This document shows, piece after piece, positions 17,403 to 60,451 of a stretch of DNA of 64,000 nucleotides. Every line of letters begins with the position of its first letter. Within the stretch, counting starts at the first letter, position 1. The stretch lies in the NCBI GenBank assembly GCA_032207245.1, contig JAGEOH010000260.1:1-64000 (forward strand), written 5' to 3'. This stretch comes from Pardosa pseudoannulata (Eukaryota > Arthropoda > Arachnida > Araneae > Lycosidae). The notes below the pieces were generated by a model. It was not told the DNA's origin. It saw only the letters and a list, made by a program, of their open reading frames with translations, and searched no databases. A program made the position numbers and the translations under genes.

Positions 17403-17615
17403 ATGACGGTCATACGCCTAACTCGTAAGCAGTATCGTCGACTGCGTAGACGGAGAATAGTTGAGATGGTGAGGCCTGTGATCAAGGATCTCGTTCGGAC
17501 GGTAGGGATACTACCAGTTATCAGAGCCCTTGAGACATTTGAAATTCGTTCTCTGAGGAAAATGTTACTTCGAGCATCCCTAGAAGAGTTCAGGCTTTAC
17601 CGCGTTTTTTGTTAG
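17403..17615 (+). CDS. Array H4-like ORF, first array copy
   Basis: 70 codons, Glu44 and Lys53. It is the only array copy preceded by the old-type H3 relic and hybrid promoter. Stem-loop 17663-17678. See 5926-6138 for the domain description. Confidence 0.5.
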   Translation: MTVIRLTRKQYRRLRRRRIVEMVRPVIKDLVRTVGILPVIRALETFEIRSLRKMLLRASLEEFRLYRVFC

Positions 17616-17901
17616 TCGGTCATAATGTGAGCGATTCCCACTCCTAATGGGTGGAAAAAAAAGGCCCTTTTCAGGGCCAATAAAATAAAATTAGAGGGAA
17701 TGCTATTTGTCGTATTGCAAAAAAGGTTTATTAAATCTTTGAATTTTGTTTATTTTCAGGGTTACTGATTCCAACTCTTAAGCTTACGTTCACTTTCGAT
17801 TTTAAAAATTGGGGGAGCAAATTATTAAACGAAATTTAGACGCCGTGTCTCTTCGTGCGCAAAGTCCGAAGGACAATTTCTAATTCGGGTTCAAATTTCT
17901 A

Positions 17902-18048
17902 CCTTCCTGTACTTCCTAAATGTTCCTGTATTTCCGATTTTGAGTGAAAATTTCTTGGTGTTATAAATGAACAGTGCACTTATTCAATACAGTCCACTGG
18001 TACAAAAAAAAAAAGATCGCTAGTGTTAATACTTCTACTTTTTGAGGG
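17902..18048 (-). pseudogene. Possible histone H2B relic
   Basis: Read on the minus strand: PSKSRSINTS..DLF (H2B has SSKAMSIMNSFVNDIF), then, after a frame change in the variable A run, DCIE and SFITPRNFH (H2B RSTITSREIQ), then SEIQEHLGSTGR (H2B GELAKHAVSEGTK). The blocks are in H2B order on one strand and divergent from the H2A relic. There are in-frame stops and several missing segments, so it is not coding. Each block alone is weak, and the order and placement carry the call. Confidence 0.35.
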
Positions 18049-18104
18049 GAAGAAAATAAAAAGATAAACTTAATACGGTCCTTAGTTTTTCTCCTAGCTG
18101 ATAG

Positions 18105-18502
18105 ATGGCAGCACTATTTCAAGATAGCGGTTTAACTGTAGATTTCGTAGGAAATAAGCGAAAATCTTACAAATCTAGAAGGTGTACATTTTTTTATACC
18201 TTCCAAAAGCGATACTTTATTTTTAAATCACCTCTTTTCAAGGCGGTTCACTGTTTTAAAATGCGAATAAAACACGAGTGAAGGGAAATTATGAACAGTT
18301 TCACTCTCCTTCAACAAACATCTGATGTTTCAAACTTTAGCAAAGAGCTTCAGTGCTGAGACTGCGAAACAGAAATGCGACCAAGATAATCAACAAGAAA
18401 CTCCAGAGCTGGTGTAAGAGAGGCTCCGAAGAGACTTTCGTGAAAATCAACGATTCTCGCCAAGTCAATACACCTTACCATACACTAGAAGCACCTATGT
18501 GA
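18105..18502 (+). pseudogene. Histone H2A relic
   Basis: In one frame from about 18278 the sequence reads VKGNYEQ (H2A RKGNYAER), then 19 codons (21 in H2A) holding a TGA and a TAG, then SVLRL (H2A EVLEL), then RNATKIINKKLQ (H2A KKTRIIPRHLQ, five residues shorter just before), then SEE and a proline-containing end to a TGA at 18500-18502. The upstream part, from ATG 18105 (MAALFQD), is less certain and is one frame off. Two stops in every unit make it non-coding. In a few copies an extra A joins frames locally (40782-41003, 33806-34000). Confidence 0.5.
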
Positions 18503-18583
18503 AGCAGCGTCGGCCGCGGTCAGTACTTTGGGGGGTGAAAATCTGAAAATCCGGTTCGGAATTGGCATTAATCTTTAAAATCC

Positions 18584-18709
18584 CTATCTTTCCCTTACTA
18601 AGCAAACAGTTTGCGAAATACCACGTAGTTTCCTACCAACAACGATTAGGAAAATAATAACGACATTAACAAAAATTCTATTACGGAACTTTTTGTGACA
18701 TTTGTGCAT
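18584..18709 (-). pseudogene. Possible histone H3 C-terminal relic in the array unit
   Basis: A 41-codon minus-strand frame ends GRKLRGISQTVCLVRER. H3 ends with [22 protein letters not shown], so the pattern of basic, hydrophobic and final R-E-R residues fits with a few residues missing. It lies where H3 should be, divergent from H4. Downstream on the minus strand (about 18541-18560) is GGATTTTCAGATT, perhaps a decayed histone stem-loop. The match is short, so chance cannot be excluded. Confidence 0.3.
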
Positions 18710-18771
18710 AGAGAATTCACCAATCGGTAATGCGTGCGACTCCACCCCTCCCTAGTAAGGCTTTATATAGA

Positions 18772-18779
18772 GCGTGATA
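18772..18779 (+). promoter_or_regulatory. TATA box of the H4-like gene (representative)
   Basis: TTTATATA lies 51-44 bases before the ATG. A start site about 30 bases on would give a leader of about 20 bases, as in histone genes. It is present at the same offset in the clean units (one base further away before 45763). Confidence 0.5.
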
Positions 18780-18822
18780 TCCAATTTTCCTACAGTATTT
18801 TTTCTGAAGTGTCAGTATCGGC

Positions 18823-19035
18823 ATGACGGTCATACGCCTAACTCGTAAGCAGTATCGTCGACTGCGTAGACGGAGAATAGTTGAGATGGTGAGGCCTGTG
18901 ATCAAGGATCTCGTTCGGACGGTAGGGATACTACCAGTTATCAGAGCCCTTGAGACATTTGAGATTCGTTCTCTGAGGAAAATGTTACTTCGAGCATCCC
19001 TAGAAGAGTTCAGGCTTTACCGCGTTTTTTGTTAG
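18823..19035 (+). CDS. Array H4-like ORF
   Basis: 70 codons, Glu44. Codon 47 is GAG where 17403 has GAA. Stem-loop 19083-19098. Lies in the representative unit. Confidence 0.5.
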   Translation: MTVIRLTRKQYRRLRRRRIVEMVRPVIKDLVRTVGILPVIRALETFEIRSLRKMLLRASLEEFRLYRVFC

Positions 19036-19082
19036 TCGGTCATAATGTGAGCGATTCCCACTCCTAATGGGTGGAAAAAAAA

Positions 19083-19098
19083 GGCCCTTTTCAGGGCC
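19083..19098 (+). promoter_or_regulatory. Histone 3' stem-loop (representative array copy)
   Basis: GGCCCTTTTCAGGGCC, preceded by a purine run (AAAAAAAA) and followed by AATAAA. The same 16 bases are found at 260 (sometimes 258 or 261) bases after each clean H4-like ATG. A damaged form (one C lost) is at 34531-34545, and stem-loops without an intact upstream ORF are at 36081-36096 and 51704-51719. Confidence 0.8.
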
Positions 19099-20241
19099 AA
19101 TAAAATAAAATTAGAGGGAATGCTATTTGTCGTATTGCAAAAAAGGTTTATTAAATCTTTGAATTTTGTTTATTTTCAGGGTTACTGATTCCAACTCTTA
19201 AGCTTACGTTCACTTTCGATTTTAAAAATTGGGGGAGCAAATTATTAAACGAAATTTAGACGCCGTGTCTCTTCGTGCGCAAAGTCCGAAGGACAATTTC
19301 TAATTCGGGTTCAAATTTCTACCTTCCTGTACTTCCTAAATGTTCCTGTATTTCCGATTTTGAGTGAAAATTTCTTGGTGTTATAAATGAACAGTGCACT
19401 TATTCAATACAGTCCACTGGTACAAAAAAAAAAAATCGCTAGTGTTAATACTTCTACTTTTTGAGGGGAAGAAAATAAAAAGATAAACTTAATACGGTCC
19501 TTAGTTTTTCTCCTAGCTGATAGATGGCAGCACTATTTCAAGATAGCGGTTTAACTGTAGATTTCGTAGGAAATAAGCGAAAATCTTACAAATCTAGAAG
19601 GTGTACATTTTTTTATACCTTCCAAAAGCGATACTTTATTTTTAAATCACCTCTTTTCAAGGCGGTTCACTGTTTTAAAATGCGAATAAAACACGAGTGA
19701 AGGGAAATTATGAACAGTTTCACTCTCCTTCAACAAACATCTGATGTTTCAAACTTTAGCAAAGAGCTTCAGTGCTGAGACTGCGAAACAGAAATGCGAC
19801 CAAGATAATCAACAAGAAACTCCAGAGCTGGTGTAAGAGAGGCTCCGAAGAGACTTTCGTGAAAATCAACGATTCTCGCCAAGTCAATACACCTTACCAT
19901 ACACTAGAAGCACCTATGTGAAGCAGCGTCGGCCGCGGTCAGTACTTTGGGGGGTGAAAATCTGAAAATCCGGTTCGGAATTGGCATTAATCTTTAAAAT
20001 CCCTATCTTTCCCTTACTAAGCAAACAGTTTGCGAAATACCACGTAGTTTCCTACCAACAACGATTAGGAAAATAATAACGACATTAACAAAAATTCTAT
20101 TACGGAACTTTTTGTGACATTTGTGCATAGAGAATTCACCAATCGGTAATGCGTGCGACTCCACCCCTCCCTAGTAAGGCTTTATATAGAGCGTGATATC
20201 CAATTTTCCTACAGTATTTTTTCTGAAGTGTCAGTATCGGC

Positions 20242-20454
20242 ATGACGGTCATACGCCTAACTCGTAAGCAGTATCGTCGACTGCGTAGACGGAGAATAGT
20301 TGAGATGGTGAGGCCTGTGATCAAGGATCTCGTTCGGACGGTAGGGATACTACCAGTTATCAGAGCCCTTGAGACATTTGAAATTCGTTCTCTGAGGAAA
20401 ATGTTACTTCGAGCATCCCTAGAAGAGTTCAGGCTTTACCGCGTTTTTTGTTAG
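20242..20454 (+). CDS. Array H4-like ORF
   Basis: 70 codons, Glu44. Stem-loop 20502-20517. TATA box about 20191-20198. Confidence 0.5.
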   Translation: MTVIRLTRKQYRRLRRRRIVEMVRPVIKDLVRTVGILPVIRALETFEIRSLRKMLLRASLEEFRLYRVFC

Positions 20455-21660
20455 TCGGTCATAATGTGAGCGATTCCCACTCCTAATGGGTGGAAAAAAA
20501 AGGCCCTTTTCAGGGCCAATAAAATAAAATTAGAGGGAATGCTATTTGTCGTATTGCAAAAAAGGTTTATTAAATCTTTGAATTTTGTTTATTTTCAGGG
20601 TTACTGATTCCAACTCTTAAGCTTACGTTCACTTTCGATTTTAAAAATTGGGGGAGCAAATTATTAAACGAAATTTAGACGCCGTGTCTCTTCGTGCGCA
20701 AAGTCCGAAGGACAATTTCTAATTCGGGTTCAAATTTCTACCTTCCTGTACTTCCTAAATGTTCCTGTATTTCCGATTTTGAGTGAAAATTTCTTGGTGT
20801 TATAAATGAACAGTGCACTTATTCAATACAGTCCACTGGTACAAAAAAAAAAGATCGCTAGTGTTAATACTTCTACTTTTTGAGGGGAAGAAAATAAAAA
20901 GATAAACTTAATACGGTCCTTAGTTTTTCTCCTAGCTGATAGATGGCAGCACTATTTCAAGATAGCGGTTTAACTGTAGATTTCGTAGGAAATAAGCGAA
21001 AATCTTACAAATCTAGAAGGTGTACATTTTTTTATACCTTCCAAAAGCGATACTTTATTTTTAAATCACCTCTTTTCAAGGCGGTTCACTGTTTTAAAAT
21101 GCGAATAAAACACGAGTGAAGGGAAATTATGAACAGTTTCACTCTCCTTCAACAAACATCTGATGTTTCAAACTTTAGCAAAGAGCTTCAGTGCTGAGAC
21201 TGCGAAACAGAAATGCGACCAAGATAATCAACAAGAAACTCCAGAGCTGGTGTAAGAGAGGCTCCGAAGAGACTTTCGTGAAAATCAACGATTCTCGCCA
21301 AGTCAATACACCTTACCATACACTAGAAGCACCTATGTGAAGCAGCGTCGGCCGCGGTCAGTACTTTGGGGGGTGAAAATCTGAAAATCCGGTTCGGAAT
21401 TGGCATTAATCTTTAAAATCCCTATCTTTCCCTTACTAAGCAAACAGTTTGCGAAATACCACGTAGTTTCCTACCAACAACGATTAGGAAAATAATAACG
21501 ACATTAACAAAAATTCTATTACGGAACTTTTTGTGACATTTGTGCATAGAGAATTCACCAATCGGTAATGCGTGCGACTCCACCCCTCCCTAGTAAGGCT
21601 TTATATAGAGCGTGATATCCAATTTTCCTACAGTATTTTTTCTGAAGTGTCAGTATCGGC

Positions 21661-21873
21661 ATGACGGTCATACGCCTAACTCGTAAGCAGTATCGTCGAC
21701 TGCGTAGACGGAGAATAGTTGAGATGGTGAGGCCTGTGATCAAGGATCTCGTTCGGACGGTAGGGATACTACCAGTTATCAGAGCCCTTGAGACATTTGA
21801 AATTCGTTCTCTGAGGAAAATGTTACTTCGAGCATCCCTAGAAGAGTTCAGGCTTTACCGCGTTTTTTGTTAG
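21661..21873 (+). CDS. Array H4-like ORF
   Basis: 70 codons, Glu44. Stem-loop 21921-21936. Confidence 0.5.
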   Translation: MTVIRLTRKQYRRLRRRRIVEMVRPVIKDLVRTVGILPVIRALETFEIRSLRKMLLRASLEEFRLYRVFC

Positions 21874-23078
21874 TCGGTCATAATGTGAGCGATTCCCACT
21901 CCTAATGGGTGGAAAAAAAAGGCCCTTTTCAGGGCCAATAAAATAAAATTAGAGGGAATGCTATTTGTCGTATTGCAAAAAAAGGTTTATTAAATCTTTG
22001 AATTTTGTTTATTTTCAGGGTTACTGATTCCAACTCTTAAGCTTACGTTCACTTTCGATTTTAAAAATTGGGGGAGCAAATTATTAAACGAAATTTAGAC
22101 GCCGTGTCTCTTCGTGCGCAAAGTCCGAAGGACAATTTCTAATTCGGGTTCAAATTTCTACCTTCCTGTACTTCCTAAATGTTCCTGTATTTCCGATTTT
22201 GAGTGAAAATTTCTTGGTGTTATAAATGAACAGTGCACTTATTCAATACAGTCCACTGGTACAAAAAAAAGATCGCTAGTGTTAATACTTCTACTTTTTG
22301 AGGGGAAGAAAATAAAAAGATAAACTTAATACGGTCCTTAGTTTTTCTCCTAGCTGATAGATGGCAGCACTATTTCAAGATAGCGGTTTAACTGTAGATT
22401 TCGTAGGAAATAAGCGAAAATCTTACAAATCTAGAAGGTGTACATTTTTTTATACCTTCCAAAAGCGATACTTTATTTTTAAATCACCTCTTTTCAAGGC
22501 GGTTCACTGTTTTAAAATGCGAATAAAACACGAGTGAAGGGAAATTATGAACAGTTTCACTCTCCTTCAACAAACATCTGATGTTTCAAACTTTAGCAAA
22601 GAGCTTCAGTGCTGAGACTGCGAAACAGAAATGCGACCAAGATAATCAACAAGAAACTCCAGAGCTGGTGTAAGAGAGGCTCCGAAGAGACTTTCGTGAA
22701 AATCAACGATTCTCGCCAAGTCAATACACCTTACCATACACTAGAAGCACCTATGTGAAGCAGCGTCGGCCGCGGTCAGTACTTTGGGGGGTGAAAATCT
22801 GAAAATCCGGTTCGGAATTGGCATTAATCTTTAAAATCCCTATCTTTCCCTTACTAAGCAAACAGTTTGCGAAATACCACGTAGTTTCCTACCAACAACG
22901 ATTAGGAAAATAATAACGACATTAACAAAAATTCTATTACGGAACTTTTTGTGACATTTGTGCATAGAGAATTCACCAATCGGTAATGCGTGCGACTCCA
23001 CCCCTCCCTAGTAAGGCTTTATATAGAGCGTGATATCCAATTTTCCTACAGTATTTTTTCTGAAGTGTCAGTATCGGC

Positions 23079-23291
23079 ATGACGGTCATACGCCTAACTC
23101 GTAAGCAGTATCGTCGACTGCGTAGACGGAGAATAGTTGAGATGGTGAGGCCTGTGATCAAGGATCTCGTTCGGACGGTAGGGATACTACCAGTTATCAG
23201 AGCCCTTGCGACATTTGAAATTCGTTCTCTGAGGAAAATGTTACTTCGAGCATCCCTAGAAGAGTTCAGGCTTTACCGCGTTTTTTGTTAG
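23079..23291 (+). CDS. Array H4-like ORF, first Ala44 copy
   Basis: 70 codons. Codon 44 is GCG (Ala) instead of GAG (Glu). Stem-loop 23339-23354. The following unit is blended or degenerate. Confidence 0.5.
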   Translation: MTVIRLTRKQYRRLRRRRIVEMVRPVIKDLVRTVGILPVIRALATFEIRSLRKMLLRASLEEFRLYRVFC

Positions 23292-24095
23292 TCGGTCATA
23301 ATGTGAGCGATTCCCACTCCTAATGGGTGGAAAAAAAAGGCCCTTTTCAGGGCCAATAAAATAAAATTAGAGGGAATGCTATTTGTCGTATTGCAAAAAA
23401 GGTTTATTAAATCTTTGAATTTTGTTTATTTTCAGGGTTACTGATTCCAACTCTTAAGCTTACGTTCACTTTCGATTTTAAAAATTGGGGGAGCAAATTA
23501 TTAAACGAAATTTAGACGCCGTGTCTCTTCGTGCGCAAAGTCCGAAGGACAATTTCTAATTCGGGTTCAAATTTCTACCTTCCTGTACTTCCTAAATGTT
23601 CCTGTATTTCCGATTTTGAGTGAAAATTTCTTGGTGTTATAAATGAACAGTGCACTTATTCAATACAGTCCACTGGTACAAAAAAAAAAAAAAAGATCGC
23701 TAGTGTTAATACTTCTACTTTTTGAGGGGAAGAAAATAAAAAGATAAACTTAATACGGTCCTTAGTTTTTCTCCTAGCTGATAGATGGCAGCACTATTTC
23801 AAGATAGCGGTTTAACTGTAGATTTCGTAGGAAATAAGCGAAAATCTTACAAATCTAGAAGGTGTACATTTTTTTATACCTTCCAAAAGCGATACTTTAT
23901 TTTTAAATCACCTCTTTTCAAGGCGGTTCACTGTTTTAAAATGCGAATAAAACACGAGTGAAGGGAAATTATGAACAGTTTCACTCTCCTTCAACAAACA
24001 TCTGATGTTTCAAACTTTAGCAAAGAGCTTCAGTGCTGAGACTGCGAAACAGAAATGCGACCAAGATAATCAACAAGAAACTCCAGAGCTGGTGT

Positions 24096-25262
24096 AAGAG
24101 ATCCGAGAGACATTTCGTGAAAATCAACGATCTCGCCAAGTCAATACACCTTACCATAAACACCTAAGCACCTATTGAAGCAGCGTCGGCCGGTCAGTAC
24201 TTTGGGGGTGAAAATCTGAAAATTGCATTAATCTTAAAATCCCTATCTTTCCCTTACTAAGCAAACAGTTTGCGAAATTACGTTTTCCTTCAACCGAAAA
24301 AAAAAACTTTTTTACATTAACATAAATTCATTTATCTTTTTGTGACAGGCTTAAAATTTATACTCTTTTTTCTGAGTCAGTATAGAATTATATTTAGTAT
24401 TTTTCTACAGTATTAATTTTTTACCTGGTAAGGATCTCGTTCGTCGGTAAGATACTACCATTTAGAATTGACATTTGATATTTTTGGAAATGTTTCGTAT
24501 AGAGTTCAGTAGTTACTTTTTTTTTAAAATTTCGTATTTTCTCTAGGAAAAAGTAAAAGTAAATAAAAAAAATTAGTGCTATATAAAAAAAAGGTTAATT
24601 AATCTTTAAATTATTTCAGGGTTACTGATTAAACTCTTTAGGTACCGATTTAAAAAGGTTATTAAATTCTTTGAATTTTGTTTATTTTCAGGGTTACTGA
24701 TTCCAACTCTTAAGCTTATTCTCCTTTCGATTTTAAAATTGGGGGGAGCAAATTAATTAAACAAAAAATAGGCCGTGTACTCTTAGAGTAATTATCAGAC
24801 TAAATTTCTAATTCCTATTTACTTCGGAAAGTTCTTTCCGATTTTGAGTGAAAATTTCTTGGTGTTATAAATGAAAACTCAATCTTACAGTCCACTTTAC
24901 AAAAAAAAAACAGATTAATTTCTACTTCACTTTGTTAGGGGAAGAAAATAAAAGATAAATTTAACGGTCCTTTAAGCAATTTATTCAAATTTTACCTTCG
25001 TAACTGTATTTCCGATTAGTGAAACAAACAGTGCACTTATTTCGTATCAATGCTAGTGATACTTTTTTTTTAAAAAGTACCTTAATACGGTCCTTATTTA
25101 AATCACCTATTTCAAAACGGTTTAACTGTTTTAAAATGCGATCTTAAAATCAGTGTACATTTAAAAAACATACATTTTTAAATCACTTTTCAAGGCGGTT
25201 CACTGAAATGCTAAAACACGAGTGAAGAAATTATGAAAGACTCTCCTTCAACAAACATCTGA
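24096..25262 (+). repeat. Blended or degenerate unit within the array
   Basis: Recognisable pieces of the unit occur in order, but with dozens of small deletions and inserted AT-rich bases. Some segments appear twice (GGGTTACTGATT near 24620 and 24693). No H4-like ORF or stem-loop survives. Sharp returns to perfect unit sequence on both sides suggest a poor consensus over a collapsed repeat rather than natural decay. Confidence 0.6.
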
Positions 25263-25759
25263 GGTTTCAAACTTTAGCAAAGAGCTTCAGTGCTGAGACT
25301 GCGAAACAGAAATGCGACCAAGATAATCAACAAGAAACTCCAGAGCTGGTGTAAGAGAGGCTCCGAAGAGACTTTCGTGAAAATCAACGATTCTCGCCAA
25401 GTCAATACACCTTACCATACACTAGAAGCACCTATGTGAAGCAGCGTCGGCCGCGGTCAGTACTTTGGGGGGTGAAAATCTGAAAATCCGGTTCGGAATT
25501 GGCATTAATCTTTAAAATCCCTATCTTTCCCTTACTAAGCAAACAGTTTGCGAAATACCACGTAGTTTCCTACCAACAACGATTAGGAAAATAATAACGA
25601 CATTAACAAAAATTCTATTACGGAACTTTTTGTGACATTTGTGCATAGAGAATTCACCAATCGGTAATGCGTGCGACTCCACCCCTCCCTAGTAAGGCTT
25701 TATATAGAGCGTGATATCCAATTTTCCTACAGTATTTTTTCTGAAGTGTCAGTATCGGC

Positions 25760-25972
25760 ATGACGGTCATACGCCTAACTCGTAAGCAGTATCGTCGACT
25801 GCGTAGACGGAGAATAGTTGAGATGGTGAGGCCTGTGATCAAGGATCTCGTTCGGACGGTAGGGATACTACCAGTTATCAGAGCCCTTGTGACATTTGAG
25901 ATTCGTTCTCTGAGGAAAATGTTACTTCGAGCATCCCTAGAAGAGTTCAGGCTTTACCGCGTTTTTTGTTAG
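25760..25972 (+). CDS. Array H4-like ORF, Val44 variant
   Basis: 70 codons. Codon 44 is GTG (Val), unique in the window and intermediate in position between the Glu and Ala forms. Stem-loop 26020-26035. Confidence 0.5.
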   Translation: MTVIRLTRKQYRRLRRRRIVEMVRPVIKDLVRTVGILPVIRALVTFEIRSLRKMLLRASLEEFRLYRVFC

Positions 25973-27179
25973 TCGGTCATAGTGTGAGCGATTCCCACTC
26001 CTAATGGGTGGAAAAAAAAGGCCCTTTTCAGGGCCAATAAAATAAAATTAGAGGGAATGCTATTTGTCGTATTGCAAAAAAGGTTTATTAAATCTTTGAA
26101 TTTTGTTTATTTTCAGGGTTACTGATTCCAACTCTTAAGCTTACGTTCACTTTCGATTTTAAAAATTGGGGGAGCAAATTATTAAACGAAATTTAGACGC
26201 CGTGTCTCTTCGTGCGCAAAGTCCGAAGGACAATTTCTAATTCGGGTTCAAATTTCTACCTTCCTGTACTTCCTAAATGTTCCTGTATTTCCGATTTTGA
26301 GTGAAAATTTCTTGGTGTTATAAATGAACAGTGCACTTATTCAATACAGTCCACTGGTACAAAAAAAAAAAGATCGCTAGTGTTAATACTTCTACTTTTT
26401 GAGGGGAAGAAAATAAAAAGATAAACTTAATACGGTCCTTAGTTTTTCTCCTAGCTGATAGATGGCAGCACTATTTCAAGATAGCGGTTTAACTGTAGAT
26501 TTCGTAGGAAATAAGCGAAAATCTTACAAATCTAGAAGGTGTACATTTTTTTATACCTTCCAAAAGCGATACTTTATTTTTAAATCACCTCTTTTCAAGG
26601 CGGTTCACTGTTTTAAAATGCGAATAAAACACGAGTGAAGGGAAATTATGAACAGTTTCACTCTCCTTCAACAAACATCTGATGTTTCAAACTTTAGCAA
26701 AGAGCTTCAGTGCTGAGACTGCGAAACAGAAATGCGACCAAGATAATCAACAAGAAACTCCAGAGCTGGTGTAAGAGAGGCTCCGAAGAGACTTTCGTGA
26801 AAATCAACGATTCTCGCCAAGTCAATACACCTTACCATACACTAGAAGCACCTATGTGAAGCAGCGTCGGCCGCGGTCAGTACTTTGGGGGGTGAAAATC
26901 TGAAAATCCGGTTCGGAATTGGCATTAATCTTTAAAATCCCTATCTTTCCCTTACTAAGCAAACAGTTTGCGAAATACCACGTAGTTTCCTACCAACAAC
27001 GATTAGGAAAATAATAACGACATTAACAAAAATTCTATTACGGAACTTTTTGTGACATTTGTGCATAGAGAATTCACCAATCGGTAATGCGTGCGACTCC
27101 ACCCCTCCCTAGTAAGGCTTTATATAGAGCGTGATATCCAATTTTCCTACAGTATTTTTTCTGAAGTGTCAGTATCGGC

Positions 27180-27392
27180 ATGACGGTCATACGCCTAACT
27201 CGTAAGCAGTATCGTCGACTGCGTAGACGGAGAATAGTTGAGATGGTGAGGCCTGTGATCAAGGATCTCGTTCGGACGGTAGGGATACTACCAGTTATCA
27301 GAGCCCTTGAGACATTTGAAATTCGTTCTCTGAGGAAAATGTTACTTCGAGCATCCCTAGAAGAGTTCAGGCTTTACCGCGTTTTTTGTTAG
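27180..27392 (+). CDS. Array H4-like ORF
   Basis: 70 codons, Glu44 within a block otherwise of the Ala44 type. Stem-loop 27440-27455. Confidence 0.5.
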   Translation: MTVIRLTRKQYRRLRRRRIVEMVRPVIKDLVRTVGILPVIRALETFEIRSLRKMLLRASLEEFRLYRVFC

Positions 27393-28598
27393 TCGGTCAT
27401 AGTGTGAGCGATTCCCACTCCTAATGGGTGGAAAAAAAAGGCCCTTTTCAGGGCCAATAAAATAAAATTAGAGGGAATGCTATTTGTCGTATTGCAAAAA
27501 AGGTTTATTAAATCTTTGAATTTTGTTTATTTTCAGGGTTACTGATTCCAACTCTTAAGCTTACGTTCACTTTCGATTTTAAAAATTGGGGGAGCAAATT
27601 ATTAAACGAAATTTAGACGCCGTGTCTCTTCGTGCGCAAAGTCCGAAGGACAATTTCTAATTCGGGTTCAAATTTCTACCTTCCTGTACTTCCTAAATGT
27701 TCCTGTATTTCCGATTTTGAGTGAAAATTTCTTGGTGTTATAAATGAACAGTGCACTTATTCAATACAGTCCACTGGTACAAAAAAAAAAGATCGCTAGT
27801 GTTAATACTTCTACTTTTTGAGGGGAAGAAAATAAAAAGATAAACTTAATACGGTCCTTAGTTTTTCTCCTAGCTGATAGATGGCAGCACTATTTCAAGA
27901 TAGCGGTTTAACTGTAGATTTCGTAGGAAATAAGCGAAAATCTTACAAATCTAGAAGGTGTACATTTTTTTATACCTTCCAAAAGCGATACTTTATTTTT
28001 AAATCACCTCTTTTCAAGGCGGTTCACTGTTTTAAAATGCGAATAAAACACGAGTGAAGGGAAATTATGAACAGTTTCACTCTCCTTCAACAAACATCTG
28101 ATGTTTCAAACTTTAGCAAAGAGCTTCAGTGCTGAGACTGCGAAACAGAAATGCGACCAAGATAATCAACAAGAAACTCCAGAGCTGGTGTAAGAGAGGC
28201 TCCGAAGAGACTTTCGTGAAAATCAACGATTCTCGCCAAGTCAATACACCTTACCATACACTAGAAGCACCTATGTGAAGCAGCGTCGGCCGCGGTCAGT
28301 ACTTTGGGGGGTGAAAATCTGAAAATCCGGTTCGGAATTGGCATTAATCTTTAAAATCCCTATCTTTCCCTTACTAAGCAAACAGTTTGCGAAATACCAC
28401 GTAGTTTCCTACCAACAACGATTAGGAAAATAATAACGACATTAACAAAAATTCTATTACGGAACTTTTTGTGACATTTGTGCATAGAGAATTCACCAAT
28501 CGGTAATGCGTGCGACTCCACCCCTCCCTAGTAAGGCTTTATATAGAGCGTGATATCCAATTTTCCTACAGTATTTTTTCTGAAGTGTCAGTATCGGC

Positions 28599-28811
28599 AT
28601 GACGGTCATACGCCTAACTCGTAAGCAGTATCGTCGACTGCGTAGACGGAGAATAGTTGAGATGGTGAGGCCTGTGATCAAGGATCTCGTTCGGACGGTA
28701 GGGATACTACCAGTTATCAGAGCCCTTGCGACATTTGAGATTCGTTCTCTGAGGAAAATGTTACTTCGAGCATCCCTAGAAGAGTTCAGGCTTTACCGCG
28801 TTTTTTGTTAG
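28599..28811 (+). CDS. Array H4-like ORF
   Basis: 70 codons, Ala44. Stem-loop 28859-28874. Confidence 0.5.
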   Translation: MTVIRLTRKQYRRLRRRRIVEMVRPVIKDLVRTVGILPVIRALATFEIRSLRKMLLRASLEEFRLYRVFC

Positions 28812-34489: not shown

Positions 34490-34500
34490 TCGGTCATAAT

Positions 34501-48813: not shown

Positions 48814-49920
48814 TCGGTCATAGTGTGAGCGATTCCCACTCCTAATGGGTGGAAAAAAAAGGCCCTTTTCAGGGCCAATAAAATAAAATTAGAGGGAATG
48901 CTATTTGTCGTATTGCAAAAAAGGTTTATTAAATCTTTGAATTTTGTTTATTTTCAGGGTTACTGATTCCAACTCTTAAGCTTACGTTCACTTTCGATTT
49001 TAAAAATTGGGGGAGCAAATTATTAAACGAAATTTAGACGCCGTGTCTCTTCGTGCGCAAAGTCCGAAGGACAATTTCTAATTCGGGTTCAAATTTCTAC
49101 CTTCCTGTACTTCCTAAATGTTCCTGTATTTCCGATTTTGAGTGAAAATTTCTTGGTGTTATAAATGAACAGTGCACTTATTCAATACAGTCCACTGGTA
49201 CAAAAAAAAAAGATCGCTAGTGTTAATACTTCTACTTTTTGAGGGGAAGAAAATAAAAAGATAAACTTAATACGGTCCTTAGTTTTTCTCCTAGCTGATA
49301 GATGGCAGCACTATTTCAAGATAGCGGTTTAACTGTAGATTTCGTAGGAAATAAGCGAAAATCTTACAAATCTAGAAGGTGTACATTTTTTTATACCTTC
49401 CAAAAGCGATACTTTATTTTTAAATCACCTCTTTTCAAGGCGGTTCACTGTTTTAAAATGCGAATAAAACACGAGTGAAGGGAAATTATGAACAGTTTCA
49501 CTCTCCTTCAACAAACATCTGATGTTTCAAACTTTAGCAAAGAGCTTCAGTGCTGAGACTGCGAAACAGAAATGCGACCAAGATAATCAACAAGAAACTC
49601 CAGAGCTGGTGTAAGAGAGGATCCGAAGAGACTTTCGTGAAAATCAACGATTCTCGCCAAGTCAATACACCTTACCATACACTAGAAGCACCTATGTGAA
49701 GCAGCGTCGGCCGCGGTCAGTACTTTGGGGGGTGAAAATCTGAAAATCCGGTTCGGAATTGGCATTAATCTTTAAAATCCCTATCTTTCCCTTACTAAGC
49801 AAACAGTTTGCGAAATACCACGTAGTTTCCTACCAACAACGATTAGGAAAATAATAACGACATTAACAAAAATTCTATTACGGAACTTTTTGTGACATTT
49901 GTGCATAGAGAATTCACCAA

Positions 49921-51675
49921 AGGCTAGAGAAGTATAGTCATTTCTAGGAATATCATTAATATAAATATTAAACAGGGTGGGACCTAAGATGGAGCCTTGT
50001 TGAACACCTGCTGTTATTGATTTTAAAGTGGAGAAAGTGTTTTGTATGCGGACGGTGAAATGACGATCGCAAAGGTAATTGTGTAAGAAATGTATTAAAG
50101 CATCAGGCATTTTGAGCTGGATTAGTTTGTAAATGAGGCCTACATGCGAGATGCGGTCGAAAGCCTTTGCGATGTCTAAGAAGAGTGCACCAGTTGGCTT
50201 ACGTGATTGTAATCCCTCGCTAGCGAGTTCCACAACACGAAGCAACTGATGAGAGGTGTTGTGCTGGTTGCGAAAACCAAATTGCTCCGGAATTAGCACA
50301 TTATTTCCCTGCAGGAAGAATTGGAGGCGGTTATATATCACTCGCTCGGCAACTTTACTGAGGCAACTCAATAGACTAATTGGGCGATAACTAGCAGGAA
50401 AAGTTAGATTAGCTTTAGGTTTGGGTATAGGACACACTATTGCAGTTTTCCAAGCGTTTGGAAAATAATTAAATTTCATCATATAGTTAATTATTGCCGT
50501 TAAATAAATTAATATATTAGGAGGTAGGTTTTTAATGCATCTATTTGAGATTTCGTCTATTCCAGGAGATTTATTATTTTTAAGATTTTTAATAATTAAA
50601 GCAACTTCTGCTATAGTAGCCGGAGTTAATTCATTACTTGGAGGGTTACTAAGAAAATTATTTACTGTACTAATAACCTGGCGGTCGTGATCCTCGTCTT
50701 CTAAATCCTCATTTGGCGCAAATTGAGTTTCGTAAACTTCCGCGATCGCTTCTGCTTTACCAGCCGGATCGAAAGCTACACCATTTAATCCGTGAATAGG
50801 AGGTATGCTGTTATAACCATTACCCCTCAGACGCTTCTGAAATTTCCATAAAGAATTGTCCTCGGTAGTAAGGTTACTTATGAAATCTGACCATTGTTTC
50901 TGTCTATAAATTTGAATCTTTTCTCTGACAGTCCGCTTGAGAACAAAGTACTCTTGCCTGGATGAAGGGGTACGAAGGTATTGATAAAGTTTACGTGCTG
51001 CATTTCTATTATGAATTAAATTCTTAATATGGGTAGGTAATTTATGAACTTTAGGTTTTTTAATTATATGGGAAGAACTTTTCTTAGCTGCATTAATAGT
51101 TTCAGTTAAGTTAATTACAGCACTTTCTATACAATTAGTAGATCTAATACTAGGAAAAAATAATTTAGCAGAGGCAAGAGTTTCCTGGAACTGACGCCAA
51201 TCAGTATAAGTGGTGGGCTCAGAAACTTGGGTAGTCAACTGCAGATCGATTGTCAGAAGAACTGGCAAATGATCTGAGTCAAAATATCCAGAGTTTCAAC
51301 ATTACATTTAAAGGGGACATTTTTGATGAGAGCAAGGTCAATAGTGGAGGGACGTCCTGAAGAAAAATGAGTGGGGGTGGGGGGGTGAAGAAGGGTAACA
51401 TCAGTATTATCGGTGACTAAATTTAGAAGCTCTCGGCCATAATTATTATTACTATAACAGTTCCAGGCTTTGTTATGGGCATTAAAGTCACCAGCCATAA
51501 CAGAGTAATTAGAATAATTAAGAATTTTAAGAATATCATCTTTAGGGAAACCTCTACCAATTTTAAAATAAGCATTAGTTATTAGAATTTTGTTATTGTT
51601 ATCAGGCAAAACCATAACAGAGTCGGACTCAAGTACGTCCGAAACAAGGTCAGATACAGCATAGTGATTAATAGA
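49921..51675 (-). mobile_element. Jockey ORF2 fragment replacing an H4-like gene
   Basis: Minus-strand ORF2 from within the endonuclease (INHYAVS) to just before the catalytic YADD (ends TSLA). It lacks both element ends and an A tail, so it did not arise by a normal insertion. It is close to copy 1, with a few base differences and a one-base deletion near 51282 that breaks the frame. The left junction is in GAATTCACCAA before the H4 promoter. The right junction is in GATTCCCACTCC just before the stem-loop. The promoter, leader and ORF of one H4-like gene are thus missing, while the stem-loop (51704-51719) remains. Confidence 0.75.
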
Positions 51676-52858
51676 TTCCCACTCCTAATGGGTGGAAAAA
51701 AAAGGCCCTTTTCAGGGCCAATAAAATAAAATTAGAGGGAATGCTATTTGTCGTATTGCAAAAAAGGTTTATTAAATCTTTGAATTTTGTTTATTTTCAG
51801 GGTTACTGATTCCAACTCTTAAGCTTACGTTCACTTTCGATTTTAAAAATTGGGGAGCAAATTATTAAACGAAATTTAGACGCCGTGTCTCTTCGTGCGC
51901 AAAGTCCGAAGGACAATTTCTAATTCGGGTTCAAATTTCTACCTTCCTGTACTTCCTAAATGTTCCTGTATTTCCGATTTTGAGTGAAAATTTCTTGGTG
52001 TTATAAATGAACAGTGCACTTATTCAATACAGTCCACTGGTACAAAAAAAAAGATCGCTAGTGTTAATACTTCTACTTTTTGAGGGGAAGAAAATAAAAA
52101 GATAAACTTAATACGGTCCTTAGTTTTTCTCCTAGCTGATAGATGGCAGCACTATTTCAAGATAGCGGTTTAACTGTAGATTTCGTAGGAAATAAGCGAA
52201 AATCTTACAAATCTAGAAGGTGTACATTTTTTTATACCTTCCAAAAGCGATACTTTATTTTTAAATCACCTCTTTTCAAGGCGGTTCACTGTTTTAAAAT
52301 GCGAATAAAACACGAGTGAAGGGAAATTATGAACAGTTTCACTCTCCTTCAACAAACATCTGATGTTTCAAACTTTAGCAAAGAGCTTCAGTGCTGAGAC
52401 TGCGAAACAGAAATGCGACCAAGATAATCAACAAGAAACTCCAGAGCTGGTGTAAGAGAGGCTCCGAAGAGACTTTCGTGAAAATCAACGATTCTCGCCA
52501 AGTCAATACACCTTACCATACACTAGAAGCACCTATGTGAAGCAGCGTCGGCCGCGGTCAGTACTTTGGGGGGAAAATCTGAAAATCCGGTTCGGAATTG
52601 GCATTAATCTTTAAAATCCCTATCTTTCCCTTACTAAGCAAACAGTTTGCGAAATACCACGTAGTTTCCTACCAACAACGATTAGGAAAATAATAACGAC
52701 ATTAACAAAAATTCTATTACGGAACTTTTTGTGACATTTGTGCATAGAGAATTCACCAATCGGTAATGCGTGCGACTCCACCCCTCCCTAGTAAGGCTTT
52801 ATATAGAGCGTGATATCCAATTTTCCTACAGTATTTTTTCTGAAGTGTCAGTATCGGC

Positions 52859-53071
52859 ATGACGGTCATACGCCTAACTCGTAAGCAGTATCGTCGACTG
52901 CGTAGACGGAGAATAGTTGAGATGGTGAGGCCTGTGATCAAGGATCTCGTTCGGACGGTAGGGATACTACCAGTTATCAGAGCCCTTGAGACATTTGAAA
53001 TTCGTTCTCTGAGGAAAATGTTACTTCGAGCATCCCTAGAAGAGTTCAGGCTTTACCGCGTTTTTTGTTAG
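52859..53071 (+). CDS. Array H4-like ORF
   Basis: 70 codons, Glu44, the type seen at the array's left end. Stem-loop 53120-53135. Confidence 0.5.
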   Translation: MTVIRLTRKQYRRLRRRRIVEMVRPVIKDLVRTVGILPVIRALETFEIRSLRKMLLRASLEEFRLYRVFC

Positions 53072-54280
53072 TCGGTCATAATGTGAGCGATTCCCACTCC
53101 TAATGGGTGGAAAAAAAAAGGCCCTTTTCAGGGCCAATAAAATAAAATTAGAGGGAATGCTATTTGTCGTATTGCAAAAAAGGTTTATTAAATCTTTGAA
53201 TTTTGTTTATTTTCAGGGTTACTGATTCCAACTCTTAAGCTTACGTTCACTTTCGATTTTAAAAATTGGGGGAGCAAATTATTAAACGAAATTTAGACGC
53301 CGTGTCTCTTCGTGCGCAAAGTCCGAAGGACAATTTCTAATTCGGGTTCAAATTTCTACCTTCCTGTACTTCCTAAATGTTCCTGTATTTCCGATTTTGA
53401 GTGAAAATTTCTTGGTGTTATAAATGAACAGTGCACTTATTCAATACAGTCCACTGGTACAAAAAAAAAAAAGATCGCTAGTGTTAATACTTCTACTTTT
53501 TGAGGGGAAGAAAATAAAAAGATAAACTTAATACGGTCCTTAGTTTTTCTCCTAGCTGATAGATGGCAGCACTATTTCAAGATAGCGGTTTAACTGTAGA
53601 TTTCGTAGGAAATAAGCGAAAATCTTACAAATCTAGAAGGTGTACATTTTTTTATACCTTCCAAAAGCGATACTTTATTTTTAAATCACCTCTTTTCAAG
53701 GCGGTTCACTGTTTTAAAATGCGAATAAAACACGAGTGAAGGGAAATTATGAACAGTTTCACTCTCCTTCAACAAACATCTGATGTTTCAAACTTTAGCA
53801 AAGAGCTTCAGTGCTGAGACTGCGAAACAGAAATGCGACCAAGATAATCAACAAGAAACTCCAGAGCTGGTGTAAGAGAGGCTCCGAAGAGACTTTCGTG
53901 AAAATCAACGATTCTCGCCAAGTCAATACACCTTACCATACACTAGAAGCACCTATGTGAAGCAGCGTCGGCCGCGGTCAGTACTTTGGGGGGTGAAAAT
54001 CTGAAAATCCGGTTCGGAATTGGCATTAATCTTTAAAATCCCTATCTTTCCCTTACTAAGCAAACAGTTTGCGAAATACCACGTAGTTTCCTACCAACAA
54101 CGATTAGGAAAATAATAACGACATTAACAAAAATTCTATTACGGAACTTTTTGTGACATTTGTGCATAGAGAATTCACCAATCGGTAATGCGTGCGACTC
54201 CACCCCTCCCTAGTAAGGCTTTATATAGAGCGTGATATCCAATTTTCCTACAGTATTTTTTCTGAAGTGTCAGTATCGGC

Positions 54281-54494
54281 ATGACGGTCATACGCCTAAC
54301 TCGTAAGCAGTATCGTCGACTGCGTAGACGGAGAATAGTTGAGATGGTGAGGCCTGTGATCAAGGATCTCGTTCGGACGGTAGGGATACTACCAGTTATC
54401 AGAGCCCTTGGAGACATTTGAGATTCGTTCTCTGAGGAAAATGTTACTTCGAGCATCCCTAGAAGAGTTCAGGCTTTACCGCGTTTTTTGTTAG
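54281..54494 (+). pseudogene. Array H4-like ORF broken by a 1-bp insertion
   Basis: An extra G (CCCTTGGAGACATT) at codon 43-44 shifts the frame. Stem-loop 54542-54557 intact. Confidence 0.7.
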
Positions 54495-55699
54495 TCGGTC
54501 ATAGTGTGAGCGATTCCCACTCCTAATGGGTGGAAAAAAAAGGCCCTTTTCAGGGCCAATAAAATAAAATTAGAGGGAATGCTATTTGTCGTATTGCAAA
54601 AAAGGTTTATTAAATCTTTGAATTTTGTTTATTTTCAGGGTTACTGATTCCAACTCTTAAGCTTACGTTCACTTTCGATTTTAAAAATTGGGGGAGCAAA
54701 TTATTAAACGAAATTTAGACGCCGTGTCTCTTCGTGCGCAAAGTCCGAAGGACAATTTCTAATTCGGGTTCAAATTTCTACCTTCCTGTACTTCCTAAAT
54801 GTTCCTGTATTTCCGATTTTGAGTGAAAATTTCTTGGTGTTATAAATGAACAGTGCACTTATTCAATACAGTCCACTGGTACAAAAAAAAAGATCGCTAG
54901 TGTTAATACTTCTACTTTTTGAGGGGAAGAAAATAAAAAGATAAACTTAATACGGTCCTTAGTTTTTCTCCTAGCTGATAGATGGCAGCACTATTTCAAG
55001 ATAGCGGTTTAACTGTAGATTTCGTAGGAAATAAGCGAAAATCTTACAAATCTAGAAGGTGTACATTTTTTTATACCTTCCAAAAGCGATACTTTATTTT
55101 TAAATCACCTCTTTTCAAGGCGGTTCACTGTTTTAAAATGCGAATAAAACACGAGTGAAGGGAAATTATGAACAGTTTCACTCTCCTTCAACAAACATCT
55201 GATGTTTCAAACTTTAGCAAAGAGCTTCAGTGCTGAGACTGCGAAACAGAAATGCGACCAAGATAATCAACAAGAAACTCCAGAGCTGGTGTAAGAGAGG
55301 CTCCGAAGAGACTTTCGTGAAAATCAACGATTCTCGCCAAGTCAATACACCTTACCATACACTAGAAGCACCTATGTGAAGCAGCGTCGGCCGCGGTCAG
55401 TACTTTGGGGGGTGAAAATCTGAAAATCCGGTTCGGAATTGGCATTAATCTTTAAAATCCCTATCTTTCCCTTACTAAGCAAACAGTTTGCGAAATACCA
55501 CGTAGTTTCCTACCAACAACGATTAGGAAAATAATAACGACATTAACAAAAATTCTATTACGGAACTTTTTGTGACATTTGTGCATAGAGAATTCACCAA
55601 TCGGTAATGCGTGCGACTCCACCCCTCCCTAGTAAGGCTTTATATAGAGCGTGATATCCAATTTTCCTACAGTATTTTTTCTGAAGTGTCAGTATCGGC

Positions 55700-55912
55700 A
55701 TGACGGTCATACGCCTAACTCGTAAGCAGTATCGTCGACTGCGTAGACGGAGAATAGTTGAGATGGTGAGGCCTGTGATCAAGGATCTCGTTCGGACGGT
55801 AGGGATACTACCAGTTATCAGAGCCCTTGCGACATTTGAGATTCGTTCTCTGAGGAAAATGTTACTTCGAGCATCCCTAGAAGAGTTCAGGCTTTACCGC
55901 GTTTTTTGTTAG
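55700..55912 (+). CDS. Array H4-like ORF
   Basis: 70 codons, Ala44. Stem-loop 55960-55975. Confidence 0.5.
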   Translation: MTVIRLTRKQYRRLRRRRIVEMVRPVIKDLVRTVGILPVIRALATFEIRSLRKMLLRASLEEFRLYRVFC

Positions 55913-57117
55913 TCGGTCATAGTGTGAGCGATTCCCACTCCTAATGGGTGGAAAAAAAAGGCCCTTTTCAGGGCCAATAAAATAAAATTAGAGGGAATGC
56001 TATTTGTCGTATTGCAAAAAAGGTTTATTAAATCTTTGAATTTTGTTTATTTTCAGGGTTACTGATTCCAACTCTTAAGCTTACGTTCACTTTCGATTTT
56101 AAAAATTGGGGGAGCAAATTATTAAACGAAATTTAGACGCCGTGTCTCTTCGTGCGCAAAGTCCGAAGGACAATTTCTAATTCGGGTTCAAATTTCTACC
56201 TTCCTGTACTTCCTAAATGTTCCTGTATTTCCGATTTTGAGTGAAAATTTCTTGGTGTTATAAATGAACAGTGCACTTATTCAATACAGTCCACTGGTAC
56301 AAAAAAAAAGATCGCTAGTGTTAATACTTCTACTTTTTGAGGGGAAGAAAATAAAAAGATAAACTTAATACGGTCCTTAGTTTTTCTCCTAGCTGATAGA
56401 TGGCAGCACTATTTCAAGATAGCGGTTTAACTGTAGATTTCGTAGGAAATAAGCGAAAATCTTACAAATCTAGAAGGTGTACATTTTTTTATACCTTCCA
56501 AAAGCGATACTTTATTTTTAAATCACCTCTTTTCAAGGCGGTTCACTGTTTTAAAATGCGAATAAAACACGAGTGAAGGGAAATTATGAACAGTTTCACT
56601 CTCCTTCAACAAACATCTGATGTTTCAAACTTTAGCAAAGAGCTTCAGTGCTGAGACTGCGAAACAGAAATGCGACCAAGATAATCAACAAGAAACTCCA
56701 GAGCTGGTGTAAGAGAGGCTCCGAAGAGACTTTCGTGAAAATCAACGATTCTCGCCAAGTCAATACACCTTACCATACACTAGAAGCACCTATGTGAAGC
56801 AGCGTCGGCCGCGGTCAGTACTTTGGGGGGTGAAAATCTGAAAATCCGGTTCGGAATTGGCATTAATCTTTAAAATCCCTATCTTTCCCTTACTAAGCAA
56901 ACAGTTTGCGAAATACCACGTAGTTTCCTACCAACAACGATTAGGAAAATAATAACGACATTAACAAAAATTCTATTACGGAACTTTTTGTGACATTTGT
57001 GCATAGAGAATTCACCAATCGGTAATGCGTGCGACTCCACCCCTCCCTAGTAAGGCTTTATATAGAGCGTGATATCCAATTTTCCTACAGTATTTTTTCT
57101 GAAGTGTCAGTATCGGC

Positions 57118-57330
57118 ATGACGGTCATACGCCTAACTCGTAAGCAGTATCGTCGACTGCGTAGACGGAGAATAGTTGAGATGGTGAGGCCTGTGATCAA
57201 GGATCTCGTTCGGACGGTAGGGATACTACCAGTTATCAGAGCCCTTGCGACATTTGAGATTCGTTCTCTGAGGAAAATGTTACTTCGAGCATCCCTAGAA
57301 GAGTTCAGGCTTTACCGCGTTTTTTGTTAG
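57118..57330 (+). CDS. Array H4-like ORF
   Basis: 70 codons, Ala44. Stem-loop 57378-57393. Confidence 0.5.
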   Translation: MTVIRLTRKQYRRLRRRRIVEMVRPVIKDLVRTVGILPVIRALATFEIRSLRKMLLRASLEEFRLYRVFC

Positions 57331-58535
57331 TCGGTCATAGTGTGAGCGATTCCCACTCCTAATGGGTGGAAAAAAAAGGCCCTTTTCAGGGCCAATAAAA
57401 TAAAATTAGAGGGAATGCTATTTGTCGTATTGCAAAAAAGGTTTATTAAATCTTTGAATTTTGTTTATTTTCAGGGTTACTGATTCCAACTCTTAAGCTT
57501 ACGTTCACTTTCGATTTTAAAAATTGGGGGAGCAAATTATTAAACGAAATTTAGACGCCGTGTCTCTTCGTGCGCAAAGTCCGAAGGACAATTTCTAATT
57601 CGGGTTCAAATTTCTACCTTCCTGTACTTCCTAAATGTTCCTGTATTTCCGATTTTGAGTGAAAATTTCTTGGTGTTATAAATGAACAGTGCACTTATTC
57701 AATACAGTCCACTGGTACAAAAAAAAAGATCGCTAGTGTTAATACTTCTACTTTTTGAGGGGAAGAAAATAAAAAGATAAACTTAATACGGTCCTTAGTT
57801 TTTCTCCTAGCTGATAGATGGCAGCACTATTTCAAGATAGCGGTTTAACTGTAGATTTCGTAGGAAATAAGCGAAAATCTTACAAATCTAGAAGGTGTAC
57901 ATTTTTTTATACCTTCCAAAAGCGATACTTTATTTTTAAATCACCTCTTTTCAAGGCGGTTCACTGTTTTAAAATGCGAATAAAACACGAGTGAAGGGAA
58001 ATTATGAACAGTTTCACTCTCCTTCAACAAACATCTGATGTTTCAAACTTTAGCAAAGAGCTTCAGTGCTGAGACTGCGAAACAGAAATGCGACCAAGAT
58101 AATCAACAAGAAACTCCAGAGCTGGTGTAAGAGAGGCTCCGAAGAGACTTTCGTGAAAATCAACGATTCTCGCCAAGTCAATACACCTTACCATACACTA
58201 GAAGCACCTATGTGAAGCAGCGTCGGCCGCGGTCAGTACTTTGGGGGGTGAAAATCTGAAAATCCGGTTCGGAATTGGCATTAATCTTTAAAATCCCTAT
58301 CTTTCCCTTACTAAGCAAACAGTTTGCGAAATACCACGTAGTTTCCTACCAACAACGATTAGGAAAATAATAACGACATTAACAAAAATTCTATTACGGA
58401 ACTTTTTGTGACATTTGTGCATAGAGAATTCACCAATCGGTAATGCGTGCGACTCCACCCCTCCCTAGTAAGGCTTTATATAGAGCGTGATATCCAATTT
58501 TCCTACAGTATTTTTTCTGAAGTGTCAGTATCGGC

Positions 58536-58748
58536 ATGACGGTCATACGCCTAACTCGTAAGCAGTATCGTCGACTGCGTAGACGGAGAATAGTTGAGAT
58601 GGTGAGGCCTGTGATCAAGGATCTCGTTCGGACGGTAGGGATACTACCAGTTATCAGAGCCCTTGCGACATTTGAGATTCGTTCTCTGAGGAAAATGTTA
58701 CTTCGAGCATCCCTAGAAGAGTTCAGGCTTTACCGCGTTTTTTGTTAG
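58536..58748 (+). CDS. Array H4-like ORF
   Basis: 70 codons, Ala44. Stem-loop 58796-58811. Confidence 0.5.
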   Translation: MTVIRLTRKQYRRLRRRRIVEMVRPVIKDLVRTVGILPVIRALATFEIRSLRKMLLRASLEEFRLYRVFC

Positions 58749-59956
58749 TCGGTCATAGTGTGAGCGATTCCCACTCCTAATGGGTGGAAAAAAAAGGCCC
58801 TTTTCAGGGCCAATAAAATAAAATTAGAGGGAATGCTATTTGTCGTATTGCAAAAAAGGTTTATTAAATCTTTGAATTTTGTTTATTTTCAGGGTTACTG
58901 ATTCCAACTCTTAAGCTTACGTTCACTTTCGATTTTAAAAATTGGGGGAGCAAATTATTAAACGAAATTTAGACGCCGTGTCTCTTCGTGCGCAAAGTCC
59001 GAAGGACAATTTCTAATTCGGGTTCAAATTTCTACCTTCCTGTACTTCCTAAATGTTCCTGTATTTCCGATTTTGAGTGAAAATTTCTTGGTGTTATAAA
59101 TGAACAGTGCACTTATTCAATACAGTCCACTGGTACAAAAAAAAAAAAGATCGCTAGTGTTAATACTTCTACTTTTTGAGGGGAAGAAAATAAAAAGATA
59201 AACTTAATACGGTCCTTAGTTTTTCTCCTAGCTGATAGATGGCAGCACTATTTCAAGATAGCGGTTTAACTGTAGATTTCGTAGGAAATAAGCGAAAATC
59301 TTACAAATCTAGAAGGTGTACATTTTTTTATACCTTCCAAAAGCGATACTTTATTTTTAAATCACCTCTTTTCAAGGCGGTTCACTGTTTTAAAATGCGA
59401 ATAAAACACGAGTGAAGGGAAATTATGAACAGTTTCACTCTCCTTCAACAAACATCTGATGTTTCAAACTTTAGCAAAGAGCTTCAGTGCTGAGACTGCG
59501 AAACAGAAATGCGACCAAGATAATCAACAAGAAACTCCAGAGCTGGTGTAAGAGAGGCTCCGAAGAGACTTTCGTGAAAATCAACGATTCTCGCCAAGTC
59601 AATACACCTTACCATACACTAGAAGCACCTATGTGAAGCAGCGTCGGCCGCGGTCAGTACTTTGGGGGGTGAAAATCTGAAAATCCGGTTCGGAATTGGC
59701 ATTAATCTTTAAAATCCCTATCTTTCCCTTACTAAGCAAACAGTTTGCGAAATACCACGTAGTTTCCTACCAACAACGATTAGGAAAATAATAACGACAT
59801 TAACAAAAATTCTATTACGGAACTTTTTGTGACATTTGTGCATAGAGAATTCACCAATCGGTAATGCGTGCGACTCCACCCCTCCCTAGTAAGGCTTTAT
59901 ATAGAGCGTGATATCCAATTTTCCTACAGTATTTTTTCTGAAGTGTCAGTATCGGC

Positions 59957-60169
59957 ATGACGGTCATACGCCTAACTCGTAAGCAGTATCGTCGACTGCG
60001 TAGACGGAGAATAGTTGAGATGGTGAGGCCTGTGATCAAGGATCTCGTTCGGACGGTAGGGATACTACCAGTTATCAGAGCCCTTGCGACATTTGAGATT
60101 CGTTCTCTGAGGAAAATGTTACTTCGAGCATCCCTAGAAGAGTTCAGGCTTTACCGCGTTTTTTGTTAG
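59957..60169 (+). CDS. Array H4-like ORF, last copy
   Basis: 70 codons, Ala44. Stem-loop 60217-60232. The array ends about 190 bases further on. Confidence 0.5.
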   Translation: MTVIRLTRKQYRRLRRRRIVEMVRPVIKDLVRTVGILPVIRALATFEIRSLRKMLLRASLEEFRLYRVFC

Positions 60170-60394
60170 TCGGTCATAGTGTGAGCGATTCCCACTCCTA
60201 ATGGGTGGAAAAAAAAGGCCCTTTTCAGGGCCAATAAAATAAAATTAGAGGGAATGCTATTTGTCGTATTGCAAAAAAGGTTTATTAAATCTTTGAATTT
60301 TGTTTATTTTCAGGGTTACTGATTCCAACTCTTAAGCTTACGTTCTCTTTCGATTTTAAAAATTGGGGGAGCAAATTATTAAACGAAATTTAGA

Positions 60395-60451
60395 CGCCGT
60401 GTCTCTTCGTGCGCAAAGTCCGAAGGACTTCGCGCACGAAGAGACACGGCG
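60395..60451. repeat. Fold-back inverted repeat at the array edge
   Basis: Arm 60395-60421, loop GAA (60422-60424), arm 60425-60451: 27-base arms with one mismatch. The left arm is normal unit sequence. Every unit contains the small palindrome GTCCGAAGGAC at this place. The right arm copies the unit backwards, then unique DNA starts. This fits self-priming on the small palindrome and template switching. Confidence 0.85.

Follow-up and report, generated by a model that had tools for sequence, protein, structure and literature searches.

An H4-like gene cassette with a histone 3' stem-loop in a 1.42-kb satellite of the spider Pardosa pseudoannulata

Here we describe a 64-kb stretch of the Pardosa pseudoannulata genome (assembly GCA_032207245.1, contig JAGEOH010000260.1, positions 1 to 64,000 of the forward strand; hereafter the window), in which a 1.42-kb repeat carrying a histone H4-like reading frame and a histone 3' stem-loop is arrayed head to tail. 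A diverged, full-length copy of the same frame, which we call the outlier, lies on the opposite strand at the left end of the window, and a detached piece of the repeat is found between two retroelements (Table 1).

The array and its cassette

The 16-base stem-loop GGCCCTTTTCAGGGCC has 29 exact matches on the plus strand of the window, one at 6186 and 28 from 17663 to 60217, and a single one on the minus strand at 16. Within the array, 24 of the 27 intervals between successive stem-loops measure 1416-1424 bp, and the three irregular ones are 2681, 2966 and 2843 bp long. Aligned to each other, with the irregular intervals excluded, the 24 regular units are on average 99.5% identical in pairwise comparison (minimum 98.95%), and their variation is confined to ten gap-free substitution columns, eight of which fall in the 1,025-bp spacer, and 23 gapped columns. 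The repeat therefore has the long head-to-tail array and the homogenised units of satellite DNA. Of the 29 plus-strand sites, 28 are matched at or above the gathering score by RF00032, the Rfam histone stem-loop model, with 34.2 bits each (the site absent from the match list is the copy at 44603), and at the outlier this model reaches 28.6 bits (E 5.4e-6), below the gathering score of 34, in a match that is clipped by the end of the window. Because of the regular spacing, the unit identity and the RF00032 matches, we regard both the satellite and its histone 3' signal as real, as had been proposed in an earlier, sequence-only reading of this DNA.

Table 1. Features of the repeat and of the outlier copy in the window
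Feature	Position	Strand	Remarks
Outlier histone 3' stem-loop	16..31	-	41 nt past the outlier stop codon
Outlier full-length H4-like frame, 90 amino acids	73..345	-	DNA ~71% identical to that of the array frame across 68 codons
Detached piece of the 1.42-kb repeat, 1.77 kb	5558..7325	+	Unit 792-1420, followed by 1-1133; flanked by two divergent retroelements
Array of 1.42-kb H4-like cassettes, head to tail	~17316..60428	+	28 stem-loops, three irregular intervals
Core promoter and 5' untranslated region of the first unit	17344..17402	+	TATATA, TACAGT start-site-like motif, ~30 nt, ATG
First H4-like frame of the array	17403..17615	+	70 amino acids and stop
First histone 3' stem-loop of the array, GGCCCTTTTCAGGGCC, 16 bases	17663..17678	+	47 nt past the stop codon; RF00032, 34.2 bits

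Each cassette runs in the order TATA box, start-site-like motif, short 5' untranslated region, H4-like frame and histone 3' stem-loop. In the unit consensus, TATATA starts at position 1101, TACAGT at 1128 and the ATG at 1160, and we take the first two, from what is generally known of such motifs, to be a TATA box and a start-site motif. Their spacing of 27 nt from start to start, together with a 5' untranslated region of ~30 nt, is normal core-promoter geometry. On the 3' side, the stem-loop is followed by AATAAA and then, 14 nt past the stem-loop, by the purine-rich AGAGGGAA, which could be a U7-pairing element. As in replication-dependent histone genes, a canonical 3' stem-loop stands shortly past the H4-like frame. 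The outlier and the array differ at 1 of 38 bases around the stem-loop and at 59 of 204 in the frame (Fisher P 1.6e-4). Since the array copies are homogenised, the perfect stem-loop in all of them is not independent evidence and counts once.

The sequence-only reading had also noted a retained H4-like frame, and such a frame is indeed present upstream of the stem-loop. Among the 29 plus-strand copies, 24 have a frame of 70 amino acids, two stop after 45-46, one extends to 81 and two are missing the exact start. Compared with the 90-residue outlier, the array frames have been shortened by a frameshift and a deletion: what remains is the basic N-terminal part with the counterparts of H4 alpha-1 and alpha-2, and the counterparts of loop 2, of alpha-3 and of the C-terminal tail are gone. 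Public data hold two further 90-residue relatives, with 99% and 83% identity, the first of which may represent the same locus. The 90-residue relative used in the comparisons below, P0002, aligns with the outlier without gaps and shows 15 replacements.

Two stretches of the array, ~23.3-25.2 kb (23339-25174) and ~34.3-36.0 kb (34300-36000), depart from the unit mainly by gaps (for example, 56 gaps with 6 mismatches, and 92 gaps with 38 mismatches), and in the second of them unit and retroelement sequence are intermixed. Both are probably low-quality consensus of noisy long reads, and the copy number of the array is therefore that of the assembly. At the right edge of the array (60425-60451), a 27-bp fold-back of its own sequence is followed by AT-rich DNA that does not belong to it.

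Histone content of the unit

The sequence-only reading had interpreted the unit as a miniaturised and decayed quartet of core-histone genes, H2B, H2A, H3 and H4, in the strand order of an insect histone repeat. Short look-alikes of these histones can indeed be read in the spacer, for example at unit positions 702-802; they score no better than shuffles. In a frameshift-tolerant alignment of the rotated unit, carried out on both strands and against 60 dinucleotide shuffles, the best scores for H2A, H2B and H3 were 32, 32 and 31, respectively, and the corresponding shuffle means were 32.4, 33.1 and 33.0. No Pfam histone model was matched by any of the six frames of the unit, and the best tblastn E-values over the whole window were 1.8 for H2A, 0.53 for H2B and 2.6 for H3. 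Moreover, a permissive Rfam search of one unit with its flanks returned the stem-loop at the two ends only and no further histone match, not even below threshold, up to E 10. An arthropod core-histone quartet would have H2A, H2B and H3 sequence in each unit and a stem-loop for each gene; what we find is one stem-loop per unit and none of the three partner histones. Because nothing of H2A, H2B or H3 rises above the shuffles, no Pfam model matches and each unit has a single stem-loop, the four-gene reading fails within the window. A lack of support for these three histones above shuffled controls had been set beforehand as one half of the test that would refute it, and for the unit analysed this is what was observed. 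The 'miniaturised' quartet and its strand order are accordingly wrong or unsupported, and we consider a four-histone origin of the unit highly improbable.

The H4 component is different in kind. When canonical H4 was searched by tblastn against the window, the best match was the outlier frame (73-345, minus strand; E 1.7e-4), and the array copies followed with E 0.36 and worse. In a phmmer search of the PDB (E up to 10) with the outlier protein, all 60 matches listed, of 84, were H4, the best with E 8.9e-4, and for P0002 the best H4 match had E 0.019, with 53 H4 entries among the 60 matches listed, of 71. The alignment of the outlier begins at H4 K16 (K9 in the outlier) and continues through the loop-2 motif, where VTS stands against VTS or VTA of H4 with one inserted residue on each side, and identity to canonical H4 is ~28%. 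In Smith-Waterman comparisons with H4, shuffled sequences scored as high in 0 of 2000 cases for the outlier, 1 of 2000 for P0002 and 2 of 2000 for the array frame. For H2A, H2B, H1 and CENP-A, at least 172 of 2000 shuffles did so for all three queries alike, and a marginal result with H3 was confined to the outlier (34 of 2000). The similarity is thus to H4, beyond chance and beyond that to other histones, as is expected of a member of the H4 family. The acetylatable tail of H4 (K5, K8, K12, K16) is not preserved, as K5, K8 and K12 have no counterpart in the outlier. In the array unit, the frameshift-tolerant alignment gave H4 a score of 48, against a shuffle mean of 31.3 (standard deviation 3.6, maximum 43); since reversed H4 scored 49 by chance on the other strand, the H4 signal of the unit taken alone is only moderately above noise. 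The H4 identity rests on the outlier copy and the stem-loop.

Divergence and constraint of the H4-like family

We believe that the unit is probably a single H4-derived gene cassette that was amplified into a satellite, rather than a four-gene relic, and that the family to which it belongs diverged under some protein-level constraint. For example, the outlier and the array differ by 28 replacements over 68 residues, compared with 35.9 (standard deviation 2.7) expected from a simulation of neutral change in which the number of base differences was likewise 59; this simulation begins from a single living copy and takes no account of the tree. As few replacements as observed were reached in 19 of the 5000 simulated runs, and 4430 acquired a stop. 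In addition, the 15 replacements between P0002 and the outlier are mild, with a mean BLOSUM62 score of 0.93 compared with -0.34 for random single-base missense changes (P 0.0025); the mean for the 28 replacements between outlier and array is 0.21. Because replacements in the frames are fewer or milder than would be expected under neutrality, some constraint at the protein level is supported by statistics, and the family does not resemble a simple pseudogene. By arithmetic on the replacement counts over 68 residues (28, 22 and 12), the array branch is the longest, and the ~19 changes that fall on it fit a loss of constraint after truncation.

Several results weigh against this interpretation, the simplified design of the simulation being one of them. 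dN/dS, the ratio of nonsynonymous to synonymous divergence, is not low between outlier and array (0.27/0.75 by NG86, 0.31/0.49 by LWL85 and 0.32/0.48 by YN00), and the constraint on the H4-like family is relaxed, not strong. The 90-residue proteins have no match to the Pfam Histone family (PF00125, E-values up to 1) or to the histone models of NCBIfam. With three sequences, hhalign assigns a probability of 17% to H4, and less than 1% to the other histones tried. The best H4 match of the 70-residue array frame in the PDB (E 1.2) stands behind an unrelated protein at 0.22, and a structure predicted from six close sequences (mean predicted local distance difference test score, pLDDT, 78) is helical, and the 50 matches listed for it include no histone.

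The lack of any curated histone match and of a histone among the listed matches to the predicted fold would suit a short basic protein of non-histone origin that acquired a histone 3' end. Against this, the similarity picks out H4 both among the histones and across the PDB, over ~70 residues and nearly without gaps, and the frame occupies the position of a histone frame, with its stop codon 41 nt upstream of the histone stem-loop. We therefore regard such a capture as very unlikely. A stronger competitor, which we still judge to be unlikely, is an ordinary decayed H4 pseudogene that was amplified, with no coding history since it split from normal H4 and with a stem-loop kept by recency and homogenisation only. 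The truncated and partly broken array frames, the large divergence from canonical H4, a pairwise dN/dS only moderately below 1 and an array so homogenised that its perfect stem-loops count once are what a pseudogene would show. It accounts less readily for the outlier and P0002, which retain 90 codons with no gap and with mild replacements, and for the 68 codons open between outlier and array, as simulated drift left a stop in most runs and more replacements in all but 19.

In the reading we favour, that of an H4-derived cassette under partial constraint, a duplicated replication-dependent H4 gene would have given rise to a fast-evolving H4-like gene, one copy of which may have lost its C-terminus and then been amplified by unequal exchange and conversion. 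If the array is transcribed, the histone processing machinery would form the end of its RNA at the stem-loop, the product would be a truncated basic peptide or none, and the full-length 90-residue copies would stay as coding members of the family.

Surroundings, significance and known systems

Two divergently oriented, ~98% identical copies of a retroelement, at 1175-5559 on the minus strand and at 7326-11697 on the plus strand, flank the 1.77-kb repeat piece; this inverted arrangement is either young or a feature of the assembly. The element encodes a reverse transcriptase and a PRE_C2HC protein. At ~1216-1240, its second frame is broken near a T-run and coding seems by eye to resume 3' in another frame, perhaps as a result of a base-calling error. 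The right-hand element starts directly behind a unit's TACAGT motif, and one promoter stretch of 61-62 bp stands at both ends of the right-hand interval (7264-7325 and 17316-17376; 96.8% identical). By its sequence, this resembles the outcome of an insertion at the transcription start that created a long target duplication; against this stands that the interval also holds ~4.8 kb that match nothing else in the window. This portion (11700-16500) has no ATG-started frame of at least 90 amino acids, and GC content is ~20% from 12 to 16 kb. Outside the array, a 316-bp unit is present in two tandem copies at 62815-63445.

On a wider view, it is conceivable, if rather doubtful, that an arthropod lineage has an H4 paralogue that is functional, evolves fast and has been stripped of its acetylation tail, and that the truncated satellite version of this paralogue, whose histone promoter and 3' end still work, interferes with histone supply. 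If so, the array would yield a dominant-negative half-H4 during S phase or in the germ line, or alternatively a large pool of stem-loop RNA competing for the stem-loop-binding protein and the U7 machinery. An animal H4 relative of ~28% identity with signs of constraint would offer a natural test of the extent to which H4 can drift, and a neighbouring satellite made from it, with an intact histone RNA end, a test of whether satellites can exploit the histone-processing machinery.

Canonical replication-dependent H4 genes of arthropods have a TATA-type promoter, a short 5' untranslated region, a single frame, a nearby canonical stem-loop and a tandem arrangement, all of which recur here. Unlike the nearly invariant canonical H4, the H4-like protein is highly diverged and is without the first 15 residues of the tail, including K5, K8 and K12; moreover, most array copies are without the alpha-3 region, and no partner histone gene was found in the unit. 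Satellites derived from multigene families, such as those from 5S rDNA, likewise consist of a gene-derived unit spread by concerted evolution, and the present one differs from them in its H4-like source gene. Gene-derived satellites, tandem histone repeats and H4 variants are thus each known kinds. Among the open-licence papers listed by literature searches, none was found to describe an H4-derived satellite or an animal H4 relative so diverged; what did not appear there is the combination of these kinds and the divergence of an animal H4 relative that bears signs of protein constraint.

Diverged H4 paralogues are described in several reports. The testis-specific H4t of Oikopleura differs by three residues (PMC3156773), human H4G lacks the C-terminal tail and is 85% identical in the remainder, and H4E of ascomycetes is another diverged paralogue (PMC10878826). 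Similar to these, the H4-like family is a diverged H4 paralogue, and the C-terminal tail is absent in H4G too; it is far more diverged than H4t or H4G as described there and, unlike them, amplified as a satellite. According to a further report, a bracovirus H4 has ~87% identity in the fold domain and an extended tail, and a medusavirus H4-like protein is hard to detect (PMC9145170). Like both of these, the family described here is a non-canonical H4 outside the normal set, and it is similarly hard to detect as the medusavirus protein; unlike the bracovirus H4 as described there, it is short-tailed and diverged and carries a metazoan 3' signal.

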